From Halalkaliarchaeum desulfuricum (lineage in GTDB: Archaea; Halobacteriota; Halobacteria; Halobacteriales; Haloferacaceae), in the NCBI RefSeq assembly GCF_002952775.1, contig NZ_CP025066.1:1364001-1428000 (forward strand): a stretch of DNA of 64,000 nt, read 5' to 3'. A program made the translations under genes and the position numbers. Below are positions 14,044-14,769 of the stretch, one piece after another; positions within the stretch are counted from its first letter, which is position 1, and the number at the start of each line of letters is the position of its first letter. The notes beneath the pieces are model-generated. The model was not told where the DNA came from. It ran no database searches and saw only the letters and a list, made by a program, of their open reading frames with translations.

Positions 14044-14322
14044 ATGGCTAAACAGAAGGCCCGATCGGTCGGCAGCGCCGGGCGCTTCGGCGCGCGATAC
14101 GGGCGCGTCTCCCGCGTTCGCGTTCGCGACATCGAAGACGAGATGCGCTCTGCGACCGTCGACGGCAACGACGTAAAACGGATCGGTACAGGTATCTGGG
14201 TCGACGAGGAGACCGGCGAGACGTTCACCGGCGGGGCCTACCGCCCCGAGACGCCCGGCGGAACACAGGTCAAACGTTCGATCCGGGCCGCGCTGTCCAG
14301 CGACGAAGACGACGAGGAGTAA
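14044..14322 (+). CDS. rpl37ae: ribosomal protein eL43 (L37Ae), zinc-ribbon cysteines absent
   Basis: The 92-residue protein has the family N-terminus ([12 protein letters not shown]) and the family end ([12 protein letters not shown], then a basic helix KRSIRAAL). It is a large-subunit protein bound to 23S rRNA. In the Haloarcula 50S structure this protein holds zinc with two CxxC pairs. Here there is no cysteine at all: the first pair region reads [11 protein letters not shown] and the second VDEETGETF. The fold must be held without zinc. The gene starts a conserved archaeal operon (eL43, rpoP, pcc1), with rpoP two bases after its stop, so it is the native locus and not a stray copy. Confidence 0.9.
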
Positions 14323-14324
14323 CG

Positions 14325-14459
14325 ATGGCGTACAAGTGTTCCCGCTGCAAACGGGACGTCGAACTCGACGAATACGGCGGCGTCCGCTGTCCGTATTGTG
14401 GTCACCGCGTGCTGTTGAAGGAGCGCGGTGGCGGCATCCAGGAAGTCGACGTCGAGTAA
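14325..14459 (+). CDS. rpoP: DNA-directed RNA polymerase subunit P (Rpo12)
   Basis: This 44-residue protein starts two bases after the eL43 stop. It carries a zinc ribbon with Cys5-x2-Cys8 and Cys22-x2-Cys25 (YKCSRCKR and VRCPYCGHR), the hallmark of Rpo12/RpoP, the archaeal counterpart of eukaryotic Rpb12 that joins the Rpo3/Rpo10 assembly platform. The length is normal for the family. Position between eL43 and Pcc1 genes is the usual archaeal arrangement. Confidence 0.93.
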
Positions 14460-14487: not shown

Positions 14488-14769
14488 ATGAACCGCGTGA
14501 CCGACATTCATTCTGCGACGCTGTCGTTCGTCTACCCCGACGAGGAGGCCGCGAGACTCGTCGCCGACGCCGTGGTGGTCGAACAGGACGAACTCGACGA
14601 CGATCGGGCCGGCGCAACCGTCGCCCGGACGGATCGAACCGTCGAGGTGACCGTCGACGCGAGCGATCTGGTCGCGTTACGTGCCGGGATCAACAGCTGG
14701 GTCCGGCTGGTCGACGTCGCCGAACGCGCAGACGGGGTCGCAAAGGGAGCCGGCGACGCCGACCGGTGA
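14488..14769 (+). CDS. pcc1: KEOPS complex subunit Pcc1
   Basis: The 93-residue protein begins HSATLSFVYPDEEAARLVADAV and has a second half with VEVTVDASDLVALRAGINSW, the pattern of Pcc1: a small alpha/beta protein that dimerises and scaffolds Kae1 in the KEOPS complex for N6-threonylcarbamoyladenosine (t6A37) synthesis on tRNA. It follows rpoP by 28 bases. ATG 14488 is chosen because the homologous region starts directly after it; an in-frame ATG at 14428 would overlap rpoP. Confidence 0.88.
   Translation: MNRVTDIHSATLSFVYPDEEAARLVADAVVVEQDELDDDRAGATVARTDRTVEVTVDASDLVALRAGINSWVRLVDVAERADGVAKGAGDADR

Follow-up and report, generated by a model that had tools for sequence, protein, structure and literature searches.

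A zinc-free form of ribosomal protein eL43 in Halalkaliarchaeum desulfuricum and its mixed distribution across the haloarchaea

Results

The eL43 gene and its neighbors

The window analyzed here is a stretch of 64,000 nucleotides from the genome of Halalkaliarchaeum desulfuricum. Its forward strand carries rpl43e (14044..14322), the gene for ribosomal protein eL43 (L37Ae). Directly downstream on the same strand, domain matches identify rpoP (14325..14459), encoding RNA polymerase subunit P, and then pcc1 (14488..14769), encoding a KEOPS subunit. For comparison, we collected 99 haloarchaeal eL43 loci from 11 GTDB families, and the linked genes recur at most of them. The gene is therefore the resident one in its native cluster, as originally predicted. 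A conserved protein of about 200 amino acids with an N-terminal CxxC...CxxC motif (MDCRQCATPLDRPGDYCLVC...) is linked to the eL43-rpoP-pcc1-prefoldin genes in most haloarchaea; it flanks eL43 at 81/99 of the related loci (e.g. L130).

Translation of rpl43e yields 92 residues, none of which is Cys or His, in agreement with the claim that the protein is devoid of Cys. The C2-C2 zinc ribbon typical of the eL43 family, though not obligatory for it, is thus absent. The Pfam model Ribosomal_L37ae (PF01780) matches the protein with an E-value of 5.5e-21 over profile positions 2–83 of 85, and the score of 74.9 bits is above the model's cut-off (21.9). In the alignment, the ligand cysteines are replaced and the rest of the protein is conserved relative to zinc-binding (C-plus) homologues, which fits the definition of a zinc-free (C-minus) ribosomal protein. 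As expected for a form of eL43 without the knuckles, it scores under the cut-offs of both NCBIfam equivalog models (82.9 vs 87; 74.4 vs 95.8). These cut-offs are curated but miss C-minus eL43, and automatic annotation may consequently misname the protein or fail to name it. An AlphaFold model of the protein has a low overall confidence (pLDDT 64.7) and superposes poorly on known eL43 (TM ~0.28).

Alignment places both zinc knuckles in remodeled form on the forward strand. The first (14146..14172; R35–D43, RSATVDGND) contains an Asp-Gly turn and lacks four residues relative to the CPxC knuckle of homologues that bind zinc. In the second (14200..14226; V53–F61, VDEETGETF), CxxC has become N/D-x-x-T followed by G-E, at equal length. 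The replaced positions had been described as acidic residues or Gly/Asp turns. This description holds for Asp54 at the second pair and for the Asp-Gly turn in knuckle 1, but not for Thr57 at the second pair, and the first knuckle has been shortened as well as substituted.

Single copy and sequence reliability

The original prediction named a second eL43 copy with full Cys and sequencing error as alternative accounts of the sequence. The genome is a single contig of 3.31 Mb with 99.99% completeness, in which a family profile search finds exactly one PF01780 match, the gene described above; no zinc-binding second copy was found by this search. The second species of the genus, the only other one sampled, has an identical eL43 core and differs by five synonymous and no non-synonymous changes. 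Since there is a single match, and the congener's core differs only synonymously, both accounts are excluded, to the extent that the assembly can show it; the occurrence of the Cys-less form throughout the family likewise rules out sequencing error as the cause.

Two PF01780 matches occur in eight genomes of the class. In one case these are copies of identical score, which have the appearance of overlapping contig ends in the assembly. The remaining seven second matches are weak (at most 26.7 bits), and the strongest reads as a TFS-like zinc ribbon. The weak second match at locus L155 (G119:C2:420093-420317) is a TFS-like zinc-ribbon protein and hence a false eL43 copy.

Sequence features of the zinc-free form

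The Cys content of eL43 is all-or-none across the 99 loci, with zero Cys in 61, four in 37, and five in one; intermediates with one to three Cys were not found among them. The knuckle 1 segment is 17 residues long in 61/61 Cys-less proteins, compared to 21 in 38/38 zinc-binding ones. The second knuckle is unchanged in length, and throughout the Cys-less group its Cys pair is replaced by Asn or Asp and by an invariant Thr. Also invariant in all 61 Cys-less proteins are the Gly of the Asp-Gly turn, a Val, and an Arg in knuckle 1, as well as the Gly, Glu, and Phe that accompany the Thr in knuckle 2. In both of the large C-minus families, pN/pS of the C-minus core ranges from 0.12 to 0.46 by segment, indicating purifying selection comparable to that on the zinc form. 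As this is true of the knuckle segments themselves, the C-minus core is a constrained alternative rather than a product of decay.

Distribution of the two forms

Family scores over 389 genomes of the class are bimodal, with values of either about 106–124 bits or about 86 bits and below, and none in between among the matches listed. C-minus eL43 is the form present in nearly all of the window's own family and of the large family f4, in each of which one zinc-binding genus was sampled. Part of the Haloarcula-containing GTDB family and three smaller families have it as well, making six GTDB families altogether. Within three genera (g41, g47, g65), C-plus and C-minus proteins are mixed. Outside the class, no C-minus-like score is among the matches listed for 393 genomes of the phylum, though the score is blind to other kinds of Cys loss.

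A tree built from four linked genes is weakly supported (23/82 branches starred); on it, the eL43 type changes at least 13 times. In genus g47, the DNA encoding the N-terminus is 68–92% identical between zinc and zinc-free species, mostly at least 84%, and yet the type of core differs. The closest pair of C-minus cores from different families (G226 and G250) is 94% identical, against a between-family mean of 76%. When the part of eL43 outside the core was subjected to an AU test, a single C-minus clade was not rejected (p 0.153).

Zinc ligands of other proteins

The rpoP product beside the Cys-less eL43 keeps its CxxC...CxxC zinc ribbon, as had been noted from the sequence, and the original prediction went on to propose an eL43-specific loss. 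This proposal was wrong. In the same genome, eL37, eL42, eS27, uS14, and eL40 each keep four cysteines, and of the four zinc cysteines of eL24 only one is left. The eL24 gene lies outside the window at G000:C1:1014694-1014873 on the reverse strand (locus L269), and its product reads MVEKRTCDYTGEEIEPG...HFKDSKAEKN with a long Glu/Ala repeat tail.

Among the 78 genomes in which both proteins were read, degenerate eL24 with one or two Cys occurs in 35/47 with C-minus eL43, compared to 5/31 with C-plus eL43. The degenerate form is widespread across the haloarchaea, and Cys loss from eL24 is graded (four, two, or one). Because two-Cys intermediates occur, this loss looks stepwise, unlike that from eL43. 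When counted by genus, the association between the two losses is strong (Fisher p 6e-7), a value that ignores relatedness. In a phylogenetic pair test with eight independent pairs on supported branches, 3.5 were concordant and none discordant, which is not significant in so small a sample. The eS31 model (PF01599) has no match in the genome of H. desulfuricum or in the Haloferax volcanii control, and the protein has likely diverged in both. Lowered cysteine levels have been described in haloarchaeal proteomes.

Discussion

On the basis of these results, the protein in the window is very probably a normal, functional eL43 in its C-minus form, in which metal-free turns stand in place of the zinc knuckles, with most likely one origin in the haloarchaea, subsequent spread, and parallel decay of eL24. 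The two zinc-clamping CxxC knuckles of the ancestral protein would have been replaced by a shortened Asp-Gly turn and a turn containing TGE, and these turns may substitute for the zinc clamp. As the surrounding conserved residues are kept, C-minus eL43 should join the 50S subunit in the usual way, with no zinc bound.

Solved ribosomes point in the same direction. A PDB sequence search finds Cys-less eL43 in entry 9L94 and seven sister entries, with a best match to the window protein of 5e-37. Chain R of 9L94 is an eL43 that is Cys-less like the window protein and aligns over residues 1–87, although its sequence differs. The presence of this chain indirectly supports incorporation of such an eL43 into the 50S subunit, presumably without zinc. 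Chain M of the same ribosome is an eL24 that is Cys-poor, like that of H. desulfuricum. Similarity to sampled Haloferacaceae suggests that the 9L94 ribosome is from Haloferax; no paper naming the entry was found in the literature searched.

The common deletion and motif of all C-minus cores make a single origin followed by exchange the simplest reading of the distribution. The comparisons between families and within genera suggest that the core arose once in the haloarchaea and would then have spread between lineages through exchange of the gene or of its core. Given the AU test and the weakness of the linked-gene tree, the exchange of the core is a step that we infer. Alternatively, the knuckles may have been lost many times independently, with lineages converging on the same metal-free solution. 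The 13 or more changes of type on the linked-gene tree are compatible with such a history, and zinc-ribbon decay does recur in haloarchaea, as seen from the graded loss in eL24 and the decayed ribbon of TFE-alpha in Haloferax and relatives. However, repeated loss would have had to produce the same four-residue shortening and the same invariant Gly, Val, Arg, TGE, and Phe in all 61 C-minus proteins, and to leave no locus with one to three Cys among the 99. We therefore consider independent losses unlikely relative to a single origin with exchange.

Two further explanations concern the function of the protein. The remodeled knuckles might still bind metal through their Asp, Glu, Asn, or Thr side chains, a notion prompted by the TFE-alpha of Haloferax, which binds zinc weakly with one remaining Cys. 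This is improbable for a protein with no Cys or His at all, in which the second-pair positions hold poor zinc ligands (Asn/Asp and Thr) and the first pair falls within the shortened segment. Less probable still is that the protein serves as a C-minus paralogue brought in by regulation when zinc is scarce, in place of a zinc-binding eL43, as with bacterial L31, L33, or S14: despite the analogy at the sequence level, this idea is refuted for H. desulfuricum by the single copy in its complete genome, and the place of the gene in the eL43-rpoP-pcc1 cluster and the nature of the second matches in the eight class genomes (one likely assembly overlap, seven weak hits) also speak against it.

The occurrence of C-minus eL43 shows that the zinc ribbon of this protein is dispensable across a large archaeal group. 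In yeast, by comparison, the zinc ribbon of eL43 has been reported in the cited literature to be important. Several selective reasons are possible, namely a high KCl concentration inside the cell, a saving of zinc, and a tendency to avoid cysteine; in a salt-in cell, concentrated KCl may lessen the need for stabilization by zinc. That eL24 has lost cysteines in parallel suggests that haloarchaeal ribosomes are moving away from structural zinc more broadly. It is conceivable, although we hold this with somewhat less than even confidence, that the haloarchaea draw on a common stock of variants, with and without zinc, for no fewer than two proteins of the 50S subunit (eL43 and eL24). In this view, the eL43 core without zinc would have a single origin and would have passed from family to family and between species of one genus, often in genomes where eL24 is zinc-free too, and the lineage as a whole would be giving up structural zinc in its salt-in cytoplasm. 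Sister species with C-plus and C-minus eL43 provide natural allele pairs for testing why ribosomes keep zinc ribbons.

Comparison with known systems

The likeness to bacterial C-minus ribosomal proteins drawn in the original prediction is supported as an analogy. C-plus and C-minus forms are described for bacterial uS4 and seven other ribosomal proteins (Chen et al. 2009, PMC3087516). There, too, zinc and zinc-free forms usually occur one per genome, and the C-minus form is horizontally transferred, as shown for uS4. Those cases involve bacterial families, with both forms in some bacteria and zinc regulation of some, whereas eL43 is an archaeal/eukaryotic-type protein without a paralogue. A second, zinc-regulated copy beside a C-plus copy, which some of the bacterial cases have but which is not obligatory, is absent here.

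A second parallel comes from transcription. In Haloferax volcanii and Haloquadratum, TFE-alpha has a degenerate zinc ribbon, whereas that of Halobacterium salinarum keeps its four Cys (PMC5861453). As with eL43, zinc-ribbon Cys have been lost from an information-processing protein, in the same family as the host of the window protein. In contrast to the Cys-less eL43, TFE-alpha is a transcription factor in which one Cys is left and weak zinc binding persists.

The closest precedent is eL43 itself, in view of which the novelty implied by the original prediction was not borne out: the loss was published in 2021, Cys-less eL43 is present in solved ribosomes, and single-copy resident C-minus ribosomal proteins are common in bacteria. 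In their treatment of L43e, Pfeiffer and Dyall-Smith (2021, PMC8305020) describe the C2-C2 zinc finger as a feature of Halobacteriales and of non-haloarchaeal euryarchaea that Haloferacales lack and that is found very rarely in Natrialbales. They list this as an open issue, with HVO_0654 of Haloferax volcanii as an example of L43e without the zinc finger. The window protein represents the same loss in the same protein and taxonomic group, and Cys-less eL43 is hence real, ordinary for its group, and previously described. The passages on L43e in that paper describe the zinc finger as kept in all Halobacteriales, whereas we find C-minus eL43 also in the family of Haloarcula and in three smaller families, and mixed within genera; its main text does not mention eL24. 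The mixed distribution of C-minus eL43 and the parallel in eL24 are the only parts that go beyond the literature found, and constitute a modest evolutionary extension of it.
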